33,028 nt of DNA from Desulfobulbaceae bacterium (GTDB lineage Bacteria; Desulfobacterota; Desulfobulbia; Desulfobulbales; Desulfobulbaceae): positions 1-33,028 of the forward strand of contig JAMJFO010000039.1 in assembly GCA_023544645.1 (NCBI GenBank), written 5' to 3'. Under the pieces are notes generated by a model. That model did not search any database, was not told the origin of the DNA, and saw only the letters and a program-made list of their open reading frames with translations. Of the stretch, positions 6,566-22,668 are shown piece after piece; the first letter of the stretch is position 1; every line of letters starts with the position of its first letter. A program made the position numbers and the translations under genes.

Positions 6566-7123
6566 ATGAATGCATTTGAAGGGCAACCGGCAGTTCCTTT
6601 CAACCTGGTGGATAGCGAGGGAAAAACACATAGCCTTGAAGACTATAAAGGCTGTTGGCTGCTTATGGTTTTTCATCGCCACCTTGGCTGACTCCCCTGC
6701 CGGGCTCACCTCTCGCAGTTGCGGGAGAAAGAAGAACTCTTCAGCAAACTGAACGTTCAGATAGCAGTGGTGACCTTTGAAGCAGACTATCTTGCGCAAC
6801 AGTATGCGCGGGAGACCGGGATTGCCTGGCCCCTGCTCATGGACGAAAAAAGAGAATTGTACCGGAATTATGGAATTCTTGAAGCATCATTCCTGGACAT
6901 ATGGGGACCCGGAACCTGGTGGGTTTATCTGAAAGAGCTCCTTGCCGGTCATCTGCCGAAAAAAACAACAGGCGATATTTCACAACGAGGTGGGGACATT
7001 CCGATTGATCCCAATGGTATTGTCCGCCTGCATCATGTGGGTTCCGGCCCTGCGGACCGCCCTTCAATTGAATCTCTTCTGCAGGTCATAGTTCAGTGCA
7101 ACAAGACCATCAACCAACGTTGA
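6566..7123 (+). CDS. Peroxiredoxin-like selenoprotein (in-frame UGA = Sec42)
   Basis: An ordinary ORF search breaks this gene at the TGA at 6689-6691. Reading that codon as selenocysteine gives one continuous 185-residue protein of the AhpC/TSA-like (Prx-like) thioredoxin fold. The active site is a UxxC motif: Sec42-Leu-Pro-Cys45 within RHLGULPCRAHL, where Cys homologues have CxxC. The N-terminal region (PAVPFNLVDSEGK) is typical of redoxin domains, and the downstream part (VVTFE...LLMDEKRELY) continues the same fold. A stem-loop compatible with a bacterial SECIS follows the UGA. The start is uncertain: GGAGG at 6543-6547 is 18 bases from the chosen ATG. A thiol- or metalloid-linked peroxidase/reductase role is inferred. 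The gene is 52 bp downstream of the ATPase gene and may share its transcript. Confidence 0.88.
6689..6727 (+). promoter_or_regulatory. UGA Sec codon and SECIS-like hairpin of the Prx-like gene
   Basis: After the UGA (6689-6691), CTCCC (6692-6696) pairs with GGGAG (6723-6727) and CTGC (6697-6700) with GCAG (6715-6718). The 14-base apical loop contains GGGCT, and TTGC is bulged on the 3' side. G-rich loop and bulge resemble bacterial SelB-binding SECIS elements. Structure inferred by eye. Confidence 0.6.
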
Positions 7124-7264: not shown

Positions 7265-7358
7265 CGATGTGCTCATTCACCCTGGTTCTGTTCTGAAAGA
7301 GCGCTGAAAATCAAACGCCATGAGATAACAGTTGAAAGAACCCCTGACCACCGGAACG

Positions 7359-7664
7359 ATGCAGTCCGTGAATCTCCAGGCAACCGCCTTCCTGGCCAAA
7401 GCCCTGGCCGATGAAAATCGGCTGCGAATTATTCAAAATCTTGCGCAAGGGAAAAAATCGGTCTCCCGGATTGTGGAAGAGCTTGGCATTTCCCAACCCC
7501 TTGCCTCGCATCACCTCAAAGAGCTCAAGCGCGCGCTCCTGGTGACCGTAGAGCGGAGCGGCCCCTTTATTTACTATGAACTCGCGGATCCCTGCATCAT
7601 GACAATCCTGACTGACTTAAACAATCTGGCAGCGAGCCTGCTGGCTGATCGAACAAAATTCTAA
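7359..7664 (+). CDS. ArsR/SmtB-family winged-helix repressor
   Basis: A 101-residue ArsR-type regulator. The pattern ALADENRLRIIQNL...KSVSRIVEELGISQPLASHHLKELKRALLV, then a wing ending in YYEL, is the classic ArsR fold. Unlike arsenic or cadmium sensors of this family there is no CxC or ELCVCDL motif in the recognition-helix region. The only Cys lies near the C-terminus (DPCIM), so a different sensing site, or a non-metal effector, is likely. An in-frame TTG at 7332 would add nine residues; I chose the ATG because the extra residues are not family-like, although neither has a good ribosome binding site. A palindromic operator lies just upstream. The gene is 18 bp before the Sec59 selenoprotein gene, with which it is surely co-transcribed. 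Confidence 0.85.
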   Translation: MQSVNLQATAFLAKALADENRLRIIQNLAQGKKSVSRIVEELGISQPLASHHLKELKRALLVTVERSGPFIYYELADPCIMTILTDLNNLAASLLADRTKF

Positions 7665-7682: not shown

Positions 7683-8132
7683 ATGAAGGAATTATCACAT
7701 ATTCTGGATGTTCTGGAACCTGCCGAGGCACTGGCGGCCATAACTCCGGAACTCAAGAAAATCCTTGCCCATCTGGACGATGAGGCCAGAGTCGCTTTTG
7801 TCACCGGCTTGATCAATGAACCCGGCGACGATAAGATTTCCAGTATGGTGGATCTCTGACTTGCGGAATGTATGGGCGAAGGTGTCGATCCCACAAAAAT
7901 GTGTCAAACTCTTGTAGATAAGGTGGCCCAATCAAAACAGTTAAAGGCTATCACGGAACCGGAGATCCTGGTTCTTTTTGAAAGCTGGCTGGATGAACTG
8001 GAAGAGGAAGTGACTTCATATATTCGGAAGCACTCGGATGCAGATCCTCTTTTTCTTGCGGAAAAATTGGGCTTATCTGAAAGCGGGGCGGTCTTCCTGG
8101 TTACAAAACTGAAAAACGAAAATAAAATCTGA
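7683..8132 (+). CDS. Unrecognised small selenoprotein (in-frame UGA = Sec59, U-x3-C motif)
   Basis: Two abutting open frames in the same reading frame are separated only by the TGA at 7857-7859. Read as selenocysteine, they make one 149-residue protein starting at ATG 7683, with GAGGG just upstream. The sequence is mostly helical. Around the codon it reads MVDLULAECMGEG, giving Sec59-x3-Cys63, with another Cys at 74. Residues about 118-149 (PLFLAEKLGLSESGAVFLVTKLKNENKI) look like a winged-helix or HTH-like segment. I recognise no family. A very good SECIS-like hairpin begins just after the UGA. The gene lies between ArsR and a thioredoxin-fold selenoprotein, suggesting a metal(loid)- or redox-sensing or -handling role. 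The alternative, two tiny separate peptides, is much less likely because the second would have no ribosome binding site. Confidence 0.82.
7857..7893 (+). promoter_or_regulatory. UGA Sec codon and SECIS-like hairpin of the Sec59 gene
   Basis: TGGG (7873-7876) pairs with CCCA (7890-7893) and CGA (7877-7879) with TCG (7885-7887). The apical loop is AGGTG and AT (7888-7889) is bulged. Loop GGU, a bulged U and a distance of about 21 bases from the UGA closely match the E. coli fdhF-type SECIS layout. Confidence 0.78.
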
Positions 8133-8135
8133 CAA

Positions 8136-8164
8136 ACACATTCCGCCCAAAAGGCGGAATGTGT
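8136..8164 (+). terminator. Terminator-like hairpin after the Sec59 gene
   Basis: A perfect 12-bp stem (ACACATTCCGCC with GGCGGAATGTGT) with loop CAAAA starts 3 bases after the stop codon. Only CTT follows rather than a long T run, so it may act as a weak terminator, attenuator or mRNA end-protecting element between the repressor pair and the genes downstream. Confidence 0.6.
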
Positions 8165-8284
8165 CTTACCATAAACTATAGGTATTTCGGATTTCAAGGC
8201 TTCGTTTAATTAATATTTTCAATACAGTTATGCAGTAATTTTTTTTCCCATCCGGTTACACCATCAAACGACAGGAGGACACAA

Positions 8285-8545
8285 ATGACCACCATACGAT
8301 TTTTTCTCAACGACCCCCAGGGGAAAACCTGAAGCCATTTCGAGGAAATGGTGCCCAGGTTGGGTGAACAGTTCGACATCGAGGTTGAAGTTGTTTCAAA
8401 ACCTCGTCAGGAATACCAGACTGATGCCTACACGCGGTCCGGTCTTCCCAAGGCTCCCGCGATCATGGTTGACAACAGCGTCATTGTCGCCGGTGGGGAT
8501 ATTGACGAAACAAACCTTATCCGCGCAATACAGGAACACCTGTAA
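8285..8545 (+). CDS. Small thioredoxin-fold selenoprotein (in-frame UGA = Sec16)
   Basis: TGA at 8330-8332 interrupts an 86-residue frame that starts at ATG 8285 with an excellent AGGAGG six bases upstream. The start codon and ribosome binding site lie before the UGA and the conserved-looking part lies after it, which argues for read-through. The protein has the beta-alpha-beta outline of a mini-thioredoxin/glutaredoxin: TIRFFLND at the N-terminus, the active-site position TUSHF, then a beta strand (DIEVEVVS), a cis-Pro-like segment GLPKAPAIMVDN and VIVAGGDID. There is no second Cys near Sec16, so it would be a mono-selenol enzyme or carrier. It resembles the small Trx-like proteins associated with metal resistance genes. 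It ends 27 bp before the RND exporter gene. Confidence 0.83.
8330..8364 (+). promoter_or_regulatory. UGA Sec codon and SECIS candidates of the Sec16 gene
   Basis: Two stems are possible after the UGA: CCATTT (8335-8340) with AAATGG (8346-8351) around loop CGAGG, and CCCA (8354-8357) with TGGG (8361-8364) around loop GGT. The first is stable but close to the codon; the second has the GGU loop at a more usual distance. I cannot tell which one functions. Confidence 0.5.
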
Positions 8546-8572: not shown

Positions 8573-11185
8573 ATGACCCCCGGCAACAGAATCATCCAAT
8601 TCTCCATCAGCAAGCCCAGGCTGATTACCGCAACAATGGTGCTGGCAACCGTTATCCTCGGGGCGCTCATGGTCAACGTCCATGTTGACACGGACCCGGA
8701 AAACATGCTTTCCCGGGATGAGGCGGTGCGGATTTTTCACAATCAAATCAAAAAGGAATTCACCCTGTATGACATGGTGGTCCTCGGGGTGGTCAATGAA
8801 AAGAATCCCAACGGCGTGTTCAATGTAGAAACGCTTGCGCGGGTGGCCGAGTTGACCGATTTCGCCGAGACACTGAGCTGGCCCGATCCGGAAGATCCGG
8901 ACAAAATAATCGGCGTGGTCAGGCGGGACATCATCGCGCCCGGCAATGTCGATGACATCCGGCAGGCCGGGCCCGGGCAGGTACGGTTTGAATGGCTGAT
9001 GCCCGAGCCGCCGGCCACACAGGAGGAAGCCCTGGAGATCCGCGACCAGGCCATGGCCAATCCCATGCTGAAAGGCACTCTGGTGTCCGAGGACGGCAGG
9101 GCTTTGGGCCTGTATCTGCCCATTACCCATAAGGATCTGGCCCACAGGATCCAGAAGCAGCTCAAGGAAAAGATCGCCGGCTTTTCCGGCGAGGAAGAAT
9201 ACCACATTACCGGCCTACCGGTGGCCGAGGATACCTTCGGGGTAGAGATGTTTGTCCAGATGGCCGTGTCTGCTCCCCTGTCCATGCTGGCCATTTTCCT
9301 GCTCATGCTGTTTTTTTTCCGGAAGCTTAGCCTGATCATTTCACCGATGATCATTGCCATGGTTTCGGTGATCTGCACCATGGGGCTGCTGATCGGCACC
9401 GGCAACACCGTGCATATCATGAGTTCCATGATTCCCATTTTTCTGATGCCGGTGGCGGTGGTGGACTCCATCCACATCCTGTCGGAATTTCATGACCAGT
9501 ACCAGAAGACCGGGGACCGGCGCCTCACCCTGGAGCATGTCATGGCGCAGCTGTTCAGGCCCATGCTCTACACCTCCCTGACTTCGGCCGCCGGTTTTGC
9601 CTCCCTGGCCCTGACCCCGATTCCGCCGGTCAGGGTTTTCGGCATTTTCGTGGCCTTCGGGATCCTGCTCGCCTGGCTGCTCACCATCACCTTTATTCCC
9701 GCCTTTATAATGATGCTCCAGAAAGAAAGCCTGGCCAGTCTCGGCGGCCGGGTAAAGGGCGGAAGTTCCTTTCTTTCCCGCCACCTGCGCTGGCTGGGCC
9801 GGGTGACCATCAGCCAGGCCAAGCCCATAATCGCCTTGTCCCTGGCAGCGCTGGTGGTGGCAGGGTACGGCATCAGCCGGATCCAGATCAACGATAATCC
9901 GGTCAACTGGTTTGCCCCGAATCATCCCATCCGGGTGGCTGACCGAGTGCTGAACAGTCATTTCGGCGGCACCTACGAGGCTTTCCTGGTGCTGGAAGCC
10001 GTTGATGAGCAGGAAACCGCAGTTGATGCCGCCCAGCTGCTCAAACAGAGCATCTCCGGCCTGAAGCCATCGACCGCGCGCCAGCAAGAGATAAACGCCG
10101 AGGCAATTGGCGACGTTGATAGACAGGCCCCCCTATCGGCTACTCCTGATGAGCTGTTCGCCGCTCTGGAGGAAAAATGGGAGAAGCAGCTCGACATGAG
10201 CTCAAGCGACCAGGGGTATGACCTGTGGTCGAACATGCTCGACGTTCTGGAAACGGTGCGGGGGAGAAAACAGATCTTCAAGCAGCCTGCCCTGCTCAGC
10301 TACATGGAAGGGCTTCAGGAACATCTCCTTACAACCGGCATTGCCGGCAAGAGCAATTCAGTGGTGGATATTGTCAAGAAGGTGCATCAGGAGCTGTATG
10401 AAGGCCGGGAGGAACAGTTCCGGGTGCCCGACACCGCGGCCGGCGTGGCCCAGAGCCTTATCTCCTACCAGAACAGCCACAAGCCGGATGATCTCTTCCA
10501 TTTCGTCACCCCGGATTACCGTAAGGCCAACATCTGGGTGCAGCTGAAAAGCGGTGACAACAAGGACATGGAAGAAGTGGTCCAGGCAGTTGAAGAATAT
10601 TTTATTCAACAACCGCCGCCCATACCGGTCAGCCATAACTGGGCCGGTCTCACCTATCTCAATGTGGTCTGGCAGGACAAAATGGTCAGCGGCATGCTCA
10701 AGGCCTTCATGGGCAGTTTTGCCGTGGTCTTCCTGATGATGACCATGCTGTTCCGCTCGCCGCTGTGGGGGATCATCGCCATGGTACCCCTCACGCTCAC
10801 TATTGCCCTGATCTACGGACTGGTGGGGTTGACGGGCAAGGACTACGACATGCCCATCGCGGTTCTGTCCGCCCTGACCCTGGGGCTGGCGGTGGATTTT
10901 GCCATCCACTTTCTCCAACGCTCCCGCATGGCCTATGACAAGACCGGCAGCTGGCGCGAAGCCGCCAAAATCATGTTTGAGGAACCGGCCCGGGCCATCA
11001 GCCGAAACGTGATCGTTATCGCGGTGGGCTTTACACCGCTCCTGGCCGCGCCACTTCTGACCTACAAGACCGTGGGCTTTTTCCTGGCCGCCATCATGGC
11101 CATTTCCGGCCTGGCGACCATGATCATCATCCCGGCCCTTATCACCCTGCTGGAACCAAGAATGTTTCCAAGGAGAACATTATGA
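8573..11185 (+). CDS. RND-superfamily (MMPL) exporter
   Basis: An 870-residue inner-membrane transporter of the MMPL/HAE-type RND superfamily (COG1033-like). It has the typical duplicated layout: TM1 at about 17-35, a large periplasmic loop to about 220, a cluster of five TM helices at about 225-380, then TM7 near 420, a second periplasmic loop to about 705 and a final cluster of five helices to 860. Acidic residues in the TM4-like segments (VAVVDSIHILSEF and GLAVDFAIHFLQRS) are the expected proton-relay positions. AGAGGA precedes the start. The stop overlaps the next gene as ATGA, so a single transcript is certain. RND proteins of this class with a LolA-like partner often move lipids or hydrophobic molecules; the substrate here is not evident from the sequence. 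Confidence 0.88.
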   Translation: MTPGNRIIQFSISKPRLITATMVLATVILGALMVNVHVDTDPENMLSRDEAVRIFHNQIKKEFTLYDMVVLGVVNEKNPNGVFNVETLARVAELTDFAETLSWPDPEDPDKIIGVVRRDIIAPGNVDDIRQAGPGQVRFEWLMPEPPATQEEALEIRDQAMANPMLKGTLVSEDGRALGLYLPITHKDLAHRIQKQLKEKIAGFSGEEEYHITGLPVAEDTFGVEMFVQMAVSAPLSMLAIFLLMLFFFRKLSLIISPMIIAMVSVICTMGLLIGTGNTVHIMSSMIPIFLMPVAVVDSIHILSEFHDQYQKTGDRRLTLEHVMAQLFRPMLYTSLTSAAGFASLALTPIPPVRVFGIFVAFGILLAWLLTITFIPAFIMMLQKESLASLGGRVKGGSSFLSRHLRWLGRVTISQAKPIIALSLAALVVAGYGISRIQINDNPVNWFAPNHPIRVADRVLNSHFGGTYEAFLVLEAVDEQETAVDAAQLLKQSISGLKPSTARQQEINAEAIGDVDRQAPLSATPDELFAALEEKWEKQLDMSSSDQGYDLWSNMLDVLETVRGRKQIFKQPALLSYMEGLQEHLLTTGIAGKSNSVVDIVKKVHQELYEGREEQFRVPDTAAGVAQSLISYQNSHKPDDLFHFVTPDYRKANIWVQLKSGDNKDMEEVVQAVEEYFIQQPPPIPVSHNWAGLTYLNVVWQDKMVSGMLKAFMGSFAVVFLMMTMLFRSPLWGIIAMVPLTLTIALIYGLVGLTGKDYDMPIAVLSALTLGLAVDFAIHFLQRSRMAYDKTGSWREAAKIMFEEPARAISRNVIVIAVGFTPLLAAPLLTYKTVGFFLAAIMAISGLATMIIIPALITLLEPRMFPRRTL

Positions 11186-11979
11186 AAAAATATATTTTGG
11201 CGCTTGGTTTATTACTGTTCTGCGGCGTCTTAGCCTGGCCTCCCGCAGGAGCGGCCGAAATCCCTGATGTCGAGGAAATCGTTGATCGGGCCAACAGGGT
11301 CGCCTATTACGCCGGCGAGGATTTCCGGGCCTCGGTCAGGATGGTCATCAGCGACGCCCAGGGCCGAACCCGGGAGCGCCAACTGATCATGCTGCGGCGC
11401 GACGTGAACGACGGCGGTGAACAGCAGTTTTACCTCTACTTTGAAAAACCGGCCGATGTCCGCAAAATGGTCTTCATGGTCCATAAATTTCTCGACCGGG
11501 ATGATGACCGCTGGCTCTATCTGCCGGCCCTGGACCTGGTCAAGCGGATCGCCGGCTCGGACAAACGCACCAGCTTTGTCGGCTCCCATTTTGTCTATGA
11601 AGATGTGTCAGGCCGCGGTATTGCTGAGGACAACCATGAACTGGTCGAGGTCACGGACAGCCACTTCATTCTCAAAAACACGCCAAAGGATCCTGACAAT
11701 GTGGAATTTTCCTCTTACACCATGTGGATCGACCGGGAAAACTTTATGCCGGTGAAGGCCGAGTACTATGACAAACAGGACCGGAAATACCGGCTGATGG
11801 AGGCCCTTGAGGTGCGTTCAATCCAGGGACACCCGACAGTGGTCAAATCCCGGGCCTCCGACCTGGCAGGCGGCGGTGAAACCGTCACCGAGTTTAATGA
11901 TATCCGCTATGACCTGGGTCTGGCCGATTCGATCTTCACCGAGCGCTATCTGCGCCGGCCTCCGAGGGAAGTGAGATAA
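11182..11979 (+). CDS. Periplasmic LolA-like (outer-membrane lipoprotein-sorting) protein
   Basis: A 265-residue protein with a cleavable signal peptide (MKKYILALGLLLFCGVLAWPPAGAA) and a LolA/LolB-like fold of the COG2834 type. The segments RERQLIMLRRD, DRWLYLPALDLVKRI and MWIDRENFMPVKAEYYD are characteristic of the LolA_like family. These proteins bind lipid-like ligands in an unclosed beta-barrel and are often encoded beside MMPL-type RND exporters, acting as periplasmic carriers. Its start overlaps the exporter stop by 4 bp and its stop overlaps the next start by 1 bp. The three genes therefore form a tight export module (inner-membrane pump, periplasmic carrier, outer-membrane barrel). 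Confidence 0.82.
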   Translation: MKKYILALGLLLFCGVLAWPPAGAAEIPDVEEIVDRANRVAYYAGEDFRASVRMVISDAQGRTRERQLIMLRRDVNDGGEQQFYLYFEKPADVRKMVFMVHKFLDRDDDRWLYLPALDLVKRIAGSDKRTSFVGSHFVYEDVSGRGIAEDNHELVEVTDSHFILKNTPKDPDNVEFSSYTMWIDRENFMPVKAEYYDKQDRKYRLMEALEVRSIQGHPTVVKSRASDLAGGGETVTEFNDIRYDLGLADSIFTERYLRRPPREVR

Positions 11980-13244
11980 TGAACAGGGTCTTAAAAATCT
12001 TTTTCCTGCTGCCGCTGCTGTTATCCCCTGCCTCGGCTCCGGCATCACCGACAATGGAATGGCTGGCCGATCATGACCTGGAGCTCCATGGATTCCTTGA
12101 TGTCCGGACCGGCGCGCGCCTCCAGGACGACCCGTACGAAAAAGACTTCTCCCTTGCGGAAACCCGGCTGCAACTGGATCTGGACGGGGATGCGGCCCGG
12201 GCAATCTTCAAAATCAAGGCCGACCTGGTGGGAGATGCGGTTGCGGAAGATTTGTCGGCGGAATTGCGGGAGGCAAACCTTCTTTTTTTGCCATTGGATT
12301 TCATGGACGTCAAAATCGGCCGCCAGCCCCTTACCTGGGGCACCGGCGACCTATTGTTCATCAACGATCTTTTTCCCAAGGACTGGGAGTCGTTTTTTAT
12401 CGGCCGGGACAATGAATACCTCAAGGCGCCATCCGACGCGCTCAAGGCAAGCCTGTTTTTCGAACCGGCCAACATCGACCTCGTCTACGTGCCGATATTC
12501 AACAATTCAACCTATATCGACGGCAGCAGGCTCTCCTATTGGAATCCCCTTTTGGCGCGCGTTGCCGGCCGGGACTTCGTCTTTGCCGACCAGGAGCGCA
12601 ACCGGTTTCCGGAAGACAGCGAATTCGCCCTGCGCCTGTACCGGAACTTCCGCGGCATTGAAACCGCTTTCTATGGCTACAGCGGTTTCTGGAAAACACC
12701 GGAAGGTCTTGATCCGGCAACAATGACCCTGACCTATCCGCGCCTGGCCGTTTGGGGTGTCAGCGCCAGGGGCCCGGTCTGGCAGGGGATCGCCAATATC
12801 GAGGCCGGTTATTACGATTCCAGGGAGGACCGCGACGGTGATGACCCTTTTGTGCGCAACAGCGAATGGCGTCTGCTCACCGGGTATGAGCGGGAAGTGG
12901 CGACCGATTTTACCGCCGCCATCCAGTATTATCTCGAATTGATGCAGGATTATGACGCCTATCACCGCACGGCGGGACCCTTCGCCAAAGATGAATTCCG
13001 CCACGTCTTCACCCTGCGGCTGACCAGACTTCTTCTCAATCAGAACCTGCAGCTCTCACTGTTCTCCTATTATTCGCCCTCGGACGATGACGGCCATCTG
13101 CGGCCCAATATCCATTACAAGATAACCGATCAATGGGCCGTGGAAGGAGGAGGCAATATCTTCTTCGGCAGCGCAGACCATACTTTTTTCGGCCAGTTTG
13201 AAAACAACACGAATCTGTACGTGGGGGTGAGAAGAACTTTTTGA
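11979..13244 (+). CDS. Outer-membrane beta-barrel protein of the export module
   Basis: A 421-residue protein with an N-terminal signal peptide (hydrophobic stretch LKIFFLLPLLLSPASAPAS). It contains many alternating hydrophobic/aromatic strands and ends in a C-terminal Phe (GVRRTF), the usual BAM recognition signal. Phrases such as DVKIGRQPLTWGTGD and FINDLFPKDW resemble DUF1302-like or porin-like barrels encoded with RND/LolA pairs. It most likely forms the outer-membrane part of the export module or a partner pore. It overlaps the LolA-like gene by one base. A hairpin follows 16 bases after the stop codon. Family assignment is by architecture, not by motif. Confidence 0.78.
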   Translation: MNRVLKIFFLLPLLLSPASAPASPTMEWLADHDLELHGFLDVRTGARLQDDPYEKDFSLAETRLQLDLDGDAARAIFKIKADLVGDAVAEDLSAELREANLLFLPLDFMDVKIGRQPLTWGTGDLLFINDLFPKDWESFFIGRDNEYLKAPSDALKASLFFEPANIDLVYVPIFNNSTYIDGSRLSYWNPLLARVAGRDFVFADQERNRFPEDSEFALRLYRNFRGIETAFYGYSGFWKTPEGLDPATMTLTYPRLAVWGVSARGPVWQGIANIEAGYYDSREDRDGDDPFVRNSEWRLLTGYEREVATDFTAAIQYYLELMQDYDAYHRTAGPFAKDEFRHVFTLRLTRLLLNQNLQLSLFSYYSPSDDDGHLRPNIHYKITDQWAVEGGGNIFFGSADHTFFGQFENNTNLYVGVRRTF

Positions 13245-13335: not shown

Positions 13336-13656
13336 ATGGGATGGCTTTATGTGATTTCGACAAATGACGCTGAAACCGTGTACAATGCGGTGCGGCTGGC
13401 CAATGTCAGCCTGAAGAAAGAGAAGGAGGTGACCCTGTTCATGCTCGGCAGGGGGGTCGAGTTCAACGAGATATCAACCGAGGATTTTAACGTCAACAGC
13501 CAGATCGATGAATTCTACGAGGCCGGCGGCGAACTCATTGTCTGAGGCGTGTGCCTCAAATCCCGTGGTCAAACGGGATCCTCTTCCTGTCCGATGGGCT
13601 TCATGACCGATCTGTACGAATTGATCGAAGAAAGCGAAAAAGTTCTTACGTTTTAG
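13336..13656 (+). CDS. DsrE-like selenoprotein (in-frame UGA = Sec70)
   Basis: TGA at 13543-13545 falls inside a 106-residue DsrE-family protein that continues in frame to TAG at 13654-13656. The N-terminal half (WLYVISTNDAETVYNAVRLAN...KKEKEVTLFMLGRGVEF) is the DsrE/DsrF-like sulfur-relay fold. The region GGELIVUGVCLKSRG holds Sec70-x2-Cys73, where Cys homologues have CGxC; Cys85 lies further on. DsrE-like selenoproteins are a known class in deltaproteobacteria. These proteins carry persulfide or related chalcogen/metalloid groups in the cytoplasm. GGGAGG at 13324-13329 supports the start. A textbook SECIS-like hairpin follows the UGA. The gene stands between the export module and an SQR-family flavoprotein, which fits reactive sulfur or selenium chemistry. 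Confidence 0.92.
13543..13578 (+). promoter_or_regulatory. UGA Sec codon and SECIS hairpin of the DsrE-like gene
   Basis: Fifteen bases after the UGA, TCCCGT (13561-13566) pairs perfectly with ACGGGA (13573-13578) around the loop GGTCAA. A 6-bp stem with loop GGU about 21 bases downstream is exactly the bacterial SECIS pattern. Confidence 0.85.
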
Positions 13657-13800: not shown

Positions 13801-13871
13801 GAAACATAAGACACAGGGGCCCCTCGTCAGGCGGTCCCTGAAAGTATTTTTACTTACATGAAGGTAGTTTG

Positions 13872-15062
13872 ATGAAAAAGAAAATTGTTGTTCTGGGAGG
13901 ATCATTCGGCGGCCTCACCGCGGCCTTGGAAGTCAAACGGCTAATGGGCGCCAAGGTTGACGTTACGGTGATCAGCGCGGACAAGGATTTTGTCTTCCTG
14001 CCGTCCCTCCCCTGGTTGATCCTGGGTTCGCGCCGGCAGGCCGACATTACCCTCGGCGTTGCCGATATCCTTGAGCCAAGGGGCATTGCATTCATCCATG
14101 AAACGGTCCAGGCGGTCAAGCCTGATGAACTGAAAGTCTGTACCGAGAAACAGGAATATCCCTACGATTACCTGGTCATCTCAACCGGGCCACATCTTTC
14201 CTGCGAAGAAATCCCGGGGCTGAGTCCGGACAAGGGCTATACACATTGCACCTTTACCATGGATTATGCCCTGAAAAGCAGGGAGGCGTGGAAAAAGCTG
14301 CTGGAAAATCCCGGTCCCATCGTTCTCGGCTCCACCCAGCTGGCCAGCTGCTTCGGCCCCTACTATGAACTGGCCTTTGAAATGGATTATGAGCTGCGCA
14401 AACGAAAAATGCGGCACAAGGTTCCCATCACCTACCTCTCCTCGGAACCCTATCTGGGGCATATGGGCGTGGGCGGTCTCGGCATGTCCAGACGTTTTCT
14501 GGAGGATGAATTTGCCCGGCTCGATATCAAGACCATCACCAGTCAGGCAATTGACGAAGTTGCCCCAGACGAAATCCGACTGGCCGGCGGCGGCAAGGTG
14601 CCGTTCAAACTGGCCATGCTGGCTCCGCCCTTCAAAGGAGTTGCAGGTGTTGCATCGCTTGGCAATCCCCGTGGTTTTATTCCGGCGGACAACTATTACC
14701 GCCACCCCGAGCATAGTAACATTTATCCCATCGGCGTGGCCATGGCCCTGGCTCCGCCGGAGCCCACCCCGGTGCCCACCGGAGTGCCGAAAACAGGGTT
14801 CATGACCGTGCGCATGGCCAAAGCCGCTGCCGCCAATATCGCCGCTGATCTGGAAAATCATGCCCTGGTCAGTGAAAAGGAGCTCAGTGTGGTCTGCCTG
14901 ATGGATATGGGCAGGACCGCGGCCTTGATGGTAGCGGATCCGGTTCTGCCGCCACGACAGAGATCATACATAAAAAAGGCTGTGTGGGCCAAATGGGCGA
15001 AAGTCCTGTTTGAAAAATACTTTCTCTGGAAGCTGCGGCATGGCTACAGTCGGTTGCCATAG
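13872..15062 (+). CDS. Sulfide:quinone oxidoreductase-like flavoprotein
   Basis: A 396-residue FAD-dependent pyridine-nucleotide-disulfide-type oxidoreductase. Residues 4-20 hold the dinucleotide-binding motif (VVLGGSFGGLTAALE); DYLVISTGP (about 99-107) and the region near IYPIGVA contact FAD. Cys126, Cys160 and Cys342 fall close to the three functional Cys of sulfide:quinone oxidoreductases (124, 156 and 347 in the Aquifex enzyme, from memory). This favours SQR over NDH-2. The basic/aromatic C-terminus (KKAVWAKWAKVLFEKYFLWKLRH) looks like an amphipathic membrane anchor. I chose ATG 13872 over an adjacent TTG at 13869 because it sits after AAGG at a good distance. Beside the DsrE-like gene it suggests (per)sulfide or selenide oxidation feeding quinone. 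Confidence 0.82.
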   Translation: MKKKIVVLGGSFGGLTAALEVKRLMGAKVDVTVISADKDFVFLPSLPWLILGSRRQADITLGVADILEPRGIAFIHETVQAVKPDELKVCTEKQEYPYDYLVISTGPHLSCEEIPGLSPDKGYTHCTFTMDYALKSREAWKKLLENPGPIVLGSTQLASCFGPYYELAFEMDYELRKRKMRHKVPITYLSSEPYLGHMGVGGLGMSRRFLEDEFARLDIKTITSQAIDEVAPDEIRLAGGGKVPFKLAMLAPPFKGVAGVASLGNPRGFIPADNYYRHPEHSNIYPIGVAMALAPPEPTPVPTGVPKTGFMTVRMAKAAAANIAADLENHALVSEKELSVVCLMDMGRTAALMVADPVLPPRQRSYIKKAVWAKWAKVLFEKYFLWKLRHGYSRLP

Positions 15063-21529: not shown

Positions 21530-22557
21530 CCTCCGATATCAGCCATGGAAGGCTCGGTTGACCGGTTTGAAAATCTTTCGGCTTCATGTCCGTTGACAAA
21601 TCGGCTCCGGATACAGTCAACAATCGCCTCGCTGATTTCCCGGTCGGCAGCGCCGGTGCGGAGCAGTTCCTTCAAATCAAGGGCGCCGCTGTCGTAGAGA
21701 CATGTCTTCAGCATTCCGGCAGGTGTAATGCGCACCTTGTTGCAGGTGCCGCAGAACTGCCTGGAATAGCCCTGAATAAGTCCCAGCCTGCCCATGTATC
21801 CCGGATGGGTAAAAACACGGGCGGTCGTCGGCGCTGCGGCTTCAGCCTCTTCCAGCTCCGGAAAGATTCGATGCAGGCGGGAAACAAGGTTGCCGTTGTT
21901 GATTTTCCCTGATCGTTTGGCGCCGGAAAACGGCATAGCTTCTATGAACCGCAGGGTGACCGGGTACTGCTTTGCCAGAGCGGCCAGCCTGGTTATTTCA
22001 TCGTCACTGGTATCCTCGAGGACCACGCTGTTAATTTTAAGCGGTATTTCCCGGGACAGGGAACCGTGCAGCGTCTGCAGGACGGAATCAAGGTAGTCAC
22101 GCCGGGTGATTCGCGAAAACCGCTCAGGATCAAGGGTGTCAAGGCTCAGATTCACACCGTCAATACGGATATTCTTTAATTCATCAAGAAACCGGAAGGT
22201 CTTGACACCGTTTGTGGTGATATGCAGGGTGCGAAGACCGTTAACCTGCCGCAACTTTGTCAGAAAAGAAATGCAGCCGCGCCGGGAAAAAGGTTCTCCT
22301 CCGGTCACCCGTACCTTCGTGATACCCAGATTGCAGAACAGGGTGACAAGACGTTCAAGCTCCTCCAGCGAAAGTATCTCTTCATGCGGAATAAAGGGAA
22401 CGCCATTCTCCGGGCGGCAGTACCGGCAACGCAGATTACACCGGTCGGTGATGGCAAGCCGGAGATAGGTGATCCGCCGGCCATGATTATCCAGCAGGAT
22501 AGACGGCCGACCTGAGTGATTGGATGACGCGGGAATATCGTTATGAACGTGGCGCAT
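21526..22557 (-). CDS. moaA: GTP 3',8-cyclase MoaA
   Basis: A 343-residue radical SAM enzyme that starts molybdopterin synthesis by cyclising GTP. The N-terminal cluster motif is Cys40-x3-Cys44-x2-Cys47 (TDRCNLRCRYCRP), followed by VRVTGGEPFSRRG, a SAM-binding motif. The C-terminal cluster Cys residues are in FCGTCNKVRITPAGMLKTCLYD. The protein ends in the GG dipeptide essential in MoaA. AAGGAG precedes the start, and the stop overlaps the permease gene. About 110 bp separate it from tatA upstream. Confidence 0.95.
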   Translation of the reverse strand: MRHVHNDIPASSNHSGRPSILLDNHGRRITYLRLAITDRCNLRCRYCRPENGVPFIPHEEILSLEELERLVTLFCNLGITKVRVTGGEPFSRRGCISFLTKLRQVNGLRTLHITTNGVKTFRFLDELKNIRIDGVNLSLDTLDPERFSRITRRDYLDSVLQTLHGSLSREIPLKINSVVLEDTSDDEITRLAALAKQYPVTLRFIEAMPFSGAKRSGKINNGNLVSRLHRIFPELEEAEAAAPTTARVFTHPGYMGRLGLIQGYSRQFCGTCNKVRITPAGMLKTCLYDSGALDLKELLRTGAADREISEAIVDCIRSRFVNGHEAERFSNRSTEPSMADIGG

Positions 22558-22668
22558 GGTATCTCCTTTCCAAGTACGGGAGGCAAAGCCGTTTCCAGCT
22601 CAACCCTGTTCGGCCTCAAACCATATCCCGCCGGACTCAGGTTTTTTGGCTCGGAGTATTACTATCGG

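Follow-up and report, generated by a model that had tools for sequence, protein, structure and literature searches.

A cysteine-free member of the TsoC selenoprotein family, with a conserved SECIS-like hairpin and a neighbouring tsoA gene, in a Desulfobulbaceae bacterium

The small selenoprotein TsoC already has a name and a family model, namely, NCBIfam NF045708 'NEPxGxxU motif selenoprotein TsoC'. The passages of a 2026 review that deal with it give its motif as GxxU, describe Tso as a three-selenoprotein operon, and credit TsoC to Haft and Tolstoy (2025, mSystems); in these passages, the Tso genes are named but carry no assigned function (PMC13188914). A literature search, with most journals outside its coverage, returned no text on the function of TsoC.

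We analyzed a contig of 33,028 nucleotides from a Desulfobulbaceae bacterium (JAMJFO010000039.1), hereafter the window, in which a preliminary description, made from the sequence alone, had proposed that positions 8285 to 8545 encode a small selenoprotein with a thioredoxin fold. The features of this gene are as follows.

8285..8545, plus strand: tsoC coding sequence, 86 codons, with ATG at 8285 and TAA at 8543-8545
8273..8278, plus strand: AGGAGG, Shine-Dalgarno-like, six bases 5' of the tsoC ATG, as read from the sequence
8330..8332, plus strand: UGA codon for Sec16 (codon 16), shared by 51 of 52 homologues, with UGC (Cys) in one
8353..8365, plus strand: bacterial SECIS-like hairpin GCCCA-GGU-UGGGU, inside the tsoC reading frame, pairing conserved

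When the UGA is read as Sec, the product is MTTIRFFLNDPQGKTUSHFEEMVPRLGEQFDIEVEVVSKPRQEYQTDAYTRSGLPKAPAIMVDNSVIVAGGDIDETNLIRAIQEHL, which matches NF045708 with 132.3 bits (cut-off, 45) from residue 3 to residue 86, that is, over model positions 2-85 of 87. Its motif reads N9-D10-P11-Q-G13-K-T-U16, with Asp in place of Glu, a substitution shared with four other of the 52 sequences. This match, together with a confident fold model, bears out the proposal of a small thioredoxin-fold selenoprotein. The further claim of an 86-residue product with a lone Sec at residue 16 (in the context T-U-S-H-F) and no Cys was likewise correct, with coordinates exact to the base. We consider the identity of TsoC and the insertion of Sec at residue 16 to be nearly certain. 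The protein is thus a further member of an already named family, rather than a new kind of protein, and what we add is the hairpin frozen at the nucleotide level, the pairing of Sec with Cys at residue 16 among homologues, a reading of GxxU that puts Sec at position two of CxxC, and the linkage to TsoA. Since there is no N-terminal extension before the thioredoxin fold, the sequence layout suggests that TsoC is probably cytoplasmic.

A search of 57 related genomes, that of the organism itself among them, found TsoC homologues over the cut-off in 13, and a search of 395 genomes from the phylum found them in 30; the 14 control genomes gave no match in either search. The homologue set comprises 52 sequences from 42 loci (the window plus 41) in 41 genomes, many of which have tsoC in two copies. 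All homologues start 5' of the UGA, and residue 16 is encoded by UGA in 51 sequences and by UGC in the remaining one (L101), so that Sec or Cys occupies this position in 52 of 52; both observations speak for the preliminary description, and residue 16 shows the classical Sec/Cys pair. In the alignment of the 52 sequences N9, P11, G13 and U/C16 are invariant, and F7, R25, L26, E35, Y44, L54, P55, A57, P58, A59, G70, I82 and L86 are nearly so.

The claim that a resolving Cys is missing holds for the window, and no Cys outside column 16 is invariant or nearly invariant in the 52 sequences; however, only 10 of the 52, window included, are free of Cys within the first 86 residues. The absence of Cys is thus the trait of a subgroup, not of the family. 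Where Cys does occur, it is most often at column 83 (24/52) or at column 12 (6/52). All six sequences with Cys12 come from two-copy loci, and in those homologues this residue, located four positions before Sec, could resolve in cis.

Two outliers deserve separate mention. The Cys form, at L101:1715-2716 (minus strand), is a TsoC-like domain joined in one protein with DUF5714 (164 bits); the TsoC domain itself scores 29 bits, under the family cut-off, and our literature search found no mention of DUF5714. The second, L100, is a divergent TsoC with UGA (52.7 bits), adjoined by an ArsR-type regulator that carries a fused rhodanese domain (L100:7215-7979, minus strand) and by a TauE/SafE exporter. 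Together these outliers may hint at redox or sulfur chemistry for TsoC.

To evaluate whether the stretch 5' of the UGA is coding, codons 3-15 of the window were compared with those of 49 homologues, leaving out L100 and L101. In the tsoC frame, 172 codons were identical, 194 differed by synonymous and 267 by non-synonymous changes, and in the two other frames the ratios of synonymous to non-synonymous changes were 44/438 and 10/464; these sequences are related by kinship and the counts are not independent. Synonymous changes are thus far commoner in the tsoC frame, so the stretch before the UGA is coding. In addition, the organism's own genome encodes the means to read UGA as Sec, namely, tRNA-Sec (74.2 bits; gathering threshold, 47), SelB (378 bits) and SelA (642.1 bits), each above its cut-off.

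The SECIS-like hairpin consists of a 5-bp stem and a GGU loop, with the loop located 25 nucleotides after the UGA. It was evaluated in an alignment of 50 sequences, from which L100, which has the UGA, and L101 were left out, both lacking the hairpin motif. First, 97.2% of cells retain pairing across the five pairs, and RNAalifold, unaided, predicts the identical stem with one further pair on the outside. Second, the pair of columns 26 and 34 is C-G in 50 of 50 sequences, and three pairs include substitutions at both positions; for instance, the C-G pair of columns 25 and 35 becomes U-A in L070 and L095, where Pro24 changes to Ser and Gly27 to Asp together. Third, the third codon positions within stem and loop are nearly fixed (49 of 50 at +26, +29 and +32), and elsewhere in tsoC third positions mostly agree in 18-35 of 50, with a few exceptions, some of which adjoin the hairpin. 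Fourth, Arg25 is encoded by AGG in 47 of 48 cases, as against 33 of 199 for the other Arg codons of the same genes (Fisher p = 1.2e-27, kinship ignored). Given the frozen nucleotides, the AGG bias and the paired changes, what is conserved as the peptide PRLG is largely a signal at the RNA level.

The bacterial SECIS model, as given in the review, has a loop of 3-9 nucleotides, a stem of 4-16 bp, a G in the first two loop positions, a distance of 16-37 nucleotides from the UGA, and a free energy of at most −7.5 kcal/mol (PMC13188914). The tsoC hairpin agrees with this model in its loop, stem, loop G and distance, and the energy is −13.4 kcal/mol for a stretch of 40 nucleotides, but −4.8 kcal/mol for the 13-nucleotide hairpin alone. 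Folding of this region against bacterial SECIS models, which the preliminary description had proposed as a check, gave a divided outcome: the geometry agrees and is conserved, whereas the window sequence taken alone gives a weak signal, with fold z-scores of −1.26 and −1.99 and a motif count near chance. Similarly, in the single-sequence folds of L072 and L079 the hairpin is not a clear minimum, and a search of Rfam gave no match for the element. The RNA case for a SECIS is thus a comparative one, single-sequence evidence being weak. Another hairpin, at 8334-8352, is paired in 74.0% of cells as against 97.2% for the SECIS-like hairpin, and given this poor conservation it is not claimed as an element.

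A structural model of TsoC was obtained with AlphaFold2, using the 52-row alignment and Cys standing for Sec, with a mean pLDDT of 92.0 and a pTM of 0.80. The model has a strand (3-9), a helix (14-29), a strand (33-39), two further strands (59-62 and 65-69) and a helix (75-85), and we confidently assign the predicted structure to the thioredoxin fold. The top VIA-align match to the model is the SelW-like 2p0g (Z 9.8, rmsd 1.9, 71 residues), with thioredoxins right behind it from Z 9.7 down, in effect a tie; the best E-value in Foldseek was 1.1e-3, and sequence searches of the PDB gave no usable relative. As to the comparison with glutaredoxin or MerP-like folds suggested in the preliminary description, the Pfam Glutaredoxin model, at E up to 0.1, matches 4 of the 52 TsoC members (Thioredoxin_3, 19 of 52). 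No MerP-like fold is among the matches listed for the model, most of them thioredoxins or SelW-like proteins, although a fold missing from such a list is not thereby ruled against.

The position of Sec16 within this fold was addressed by aligning TsoC with 15 MTH895/ArsE-like proteins of relatives using hhalign, which pairs the two Cys of CxxC with Gly13 and Sec16, in that order, with a probability of 92.8 in local and 89.4 in global mode; this is a one-to-one comparison, and its E-value is not a database E-value. Sec16 had been described as occupying the active-site position, and it does lie at the motif site, but on the second position of CxxC, normally the resolving one, Gly13 being on the first, a placement taken from this one profile comparison. 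We thus read the active site of TsoC as a degenerate CxxC, namely GxxU, in which Gly would replace the attacking Cys and Sec would occupy the resolving position.

The genes immediately 5' of tsoC are two further members of the Tso system.

7332..7664, plus strand: tsoR, ArsR/SmtB-type regulator (NF045707, 156.2 bits; cut-off, 115)
7683..8132, plus strand: tsoA, LULAxC selenoprotein with Sec59 at 7857-7859 and UGA as stop (NF045695, 211.5 bits; cut-off, 170)

The preliminary description had also invoked neighbouring selenoproteins, and these do exist: TsoA, which adjoins tsoC, has Sec59, Cys63 and Cys74 invariant in an alignment of 33 sequences. Among the 57 relatives, TsoA is over its cut-off in all 13 genomes with TsoC and in seven more that have TsoA only. 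In the phylum, 25 of 395 genomes have both proteins, five have TsoC only and eight have TsoA only, TsoA being present in 33 in total; this overlap was counted by hand, taking both searches to cover the same 395 genomes, whose handles agree. Four of the five genomes with TsoC but not TsoA are at least 98% complete. At the level of loci, TsoA is found at more than 100 bits in 33 of the 42, and TsoB (rhodanese, DsbD membrane domain and thioredoxin domain, with two UGA codons) at more than 300 bits in 23; both counts are lower bounds, since several loci end at contig ends. No TsoB over the cut-off of 805 bits was found in the genome studied here, the best score being 76.4 bits, and because of the absence of tsoB we file the locus as TsoR-TsoA-TsoC, and not as the full three-selenoprotein operon. 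A profile alignment of TsoC with the thioredoxin domain of TsoB gave a probability of 0.6%, too weak to serve as a second test of where Sec16 falls in the motif.

The structural model of TsoA is poor (pLDDT 72.9, pTM 0.37). A PDB search with its sequence found a tendon repeat protein at one low E-value, 0.00015, matched across 38 residues with no stretch passing alone; we take this match as chance or composition. Between tsoA and tsoC, at 8136-8164, there is a perfect 12-bp inverted repeat (ACACATTCCGCC/GGCGGAATGTGT) with no T run, which may separate or process the messages of the two genes.

The genes 3' of tsoC are as follows.

8573..11185, plus strand: MMPL/RND family transporter (PF03176, 123 bits), near tsoC in four other loci
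11182..11979, plus strand: LolA-like outer-membrane lipoprotein-sorting protein (PF17131, 183.1 bits)
11979..13244, plus strand: 421-residue protein with no family match, a neighbour in the same loci as the MMPL/RND transporter
13336..13656, plus strand: DsrE-like selenoprotein candidate with UGA at 13543-13545 (U-G-V-C; PF02635, 33.1 bits)
13869..15062, plus strand: FAD/NAD(P) oxidoreductase (Pyr_redox_2; PF07992, 52.3 bits), near tsoC in three other loci

Neighbours were counted with targeted profiles over all 42 tsoC loci; a separate search for related loci gave just one. The set 3' of tsoC recurs in two loci (L069 and L072) and is partly present in three more (L061, L081 and L098); the DsrE-like candidate is also found near tsoC in L069, L072 and L098. 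In 16 loci, tsoC is followed on its own strand by a VTT-domain membrane protein (PF09335; for example, L073:9445-10134), a 17th match, in L099, being weak. Elsewhere in the window, 5' of tsoR, a gene for a SelL-related redox protein (6566-7123, plus strand; NF040769, 183.8 bits; cut-off, 120), with an in-frame UGA at 6689-6691 and a UxxC motif, represents a further selenoprotein, and a molybdenum/tungsten cofactor riboswitch (RF01055, 74.6 bits) is located at 22546-22668 on the minus strand.

A selenol standing alone at the helix start in a thioredoxin fold is both strongly nucleophilic and a good leaving group. We propose that TsoC is translated through the UGA by the bacterial Sec machinery, aided by the in-frame SECIS-like hairpin; that Sec16 would then form a transient selenenylsulfide with a substrate or partner; and that a partner would resolve this bond. 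As TsoC of the window has no Cys of its own, its selenol has no intramolecular bond to form and would have to act in trans, and on these chemical grounds we lean moderately towards the view that TsoC works in trans through Sec16. With its invariant Sec59, Cys63 and Cys74, TsoA could resolve a bond made by TsoC and would be the best candidate; that it is the direct partner is nevertheless a tentative suggestion, and the five of 30 TsoC genomes in which TsoA is missing count against it as an obligatory partner. Taken as a whole, the explanation, from Sec insertion and GxxU to an in-trans selenenylsulfide with TsoA as best partner candidate, seems to us evenly poised. Among the modes of action considered, this transient relay through TsoA is the one that we favour; a role as chalcogen carrier is its chief competitor, and one as metal chaperone comes behind.

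The main rival holds that Sec16 carries sulfane sulfur or selenium, in a perselenide-type form, and passes it on in a sulfur or selenium relay, as a persulfide carrier would. Sulfur-type genes near tsoC are consistent with this possibility, which we regard as having an appreciable but minor chance: TsoB, with its rhodanese, DsbD membrane and thioredoxin domains, occurs in the 23 of 42 loci already mentioned, the DsrE-like selenoprotein lies near tsoC in four loci, window included, the ArsR-rhodanese fusion and the TauE/SafE exporter lie beside the TsoC of L100, and SelD matches 2 of 66 downstream proteins. However, the genome studied here has no TsoB over the cut-off, the neighbourhood varies, and none of the sulfur-type genes is constant. 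It is tempting to speculate on a more specific version, rather unlikely in our judgment, in which TsoC would be a dedicated mono-selenol chalcogen carrier that lost the attacking Cys (Gly13) and uses Sec at the formerly resolving position. If true, TsoC would relay sulfur or selenium among TsoA, TsoB or the DsrE-like selenoprotein, where present, in an all-selenoprotein relay.

In the case of metals, TsoC would bind a metal or metalloid via its selenolate and deliver it to an exporter, an idea to which the adjoining regulator of the ArsR/SmtB metalloregulator type, the RND-type transporter 3' in the window and the VTT-domain membrane protein of 16 other loci lend themselves. Yet a single soft ligand, with no conserved Cys and no His at any invariant or nearly invariant position, makes a poor site; no metal-binding family matched TsoC in our family profile searches; and regulators of the ArsR type also sense sulfur species. 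We therefore consider metal delivery improbable. Finally, that the UGA is a plain stop, so that tsoC is either a pseudogene or a 65-residue protein starting from the ATG at 8348, can be practically dismissed, for although the frame 8348-8545 is open without recoding and the RNA evidence from the single sequence is weak, the UGA falls at the same codon in 51 of 52 homologues with Cys in the other, residues 9, 11 and 13, all before the UGA, never vary, codons 3-15 change in the manner of a coding sequence, the hairpin nucleotides are frozen, the genome has tRNA-Sec, SelA and SelB, and a protein starting at 8348 would have neither the active site nor the initial strand of the fold.

TsoC is of interest for its simplicity, with 86 residues, one reactive atom and no Cys. 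Any adduct of the thiol/selenol type must therefore sit on Sec16, which makes trapping experiments unusually easy to read, and trapping with TsoC could reveal the function of the whole Tso system. Moreover, the alignment of Sec16 with the resolving position of CxxC, and of an invariant Gly with the attacking Cys, makes a claim about chemistry that is exact enough to be tested.

How, then, does this protein compare with known systems? First, like other TsoC proteins of NF045708, it matches the family over its full length and above the cut-off, with GxxU, a single Sec, and linkage to TsoA and TsoR; it differs in having NDPxGxxU instead of the literal NEPxGxxU, in the absence of TsoB, and in the RND transporter 3' of tsoC, where 16 other loci have the VTT-domain protein. 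Second, compared with MTH895/ArsE (TIGR00412) and Pfam Thioredoxin_3, TsoC shares the order of fold elements and a similar PA-V/I-x-V/I-D/N segment, but CxxC is theirs and not TsoC's; with 16.6 bits against a cut-off of 62 (E 0.008) it is not a member of the former, and it scores 12.1 bits against a cut-off of 24.8 (E 0.21) in the latter. Third, selenoprotein W/Rdx (2p0g) has the same small thioredoxin-like fold of about 80 residues, in TsoC according to the model, and Sec at the second motif position, with 13% identity over the structural alignment and no PDB match at the sequence level. The motif of SELENOW is given as CXXU (PMC8508763), whereas that of TsoC is GxxU, with Gly13 in 52 of 52 sequences, that is, CxxU minus its Cys.
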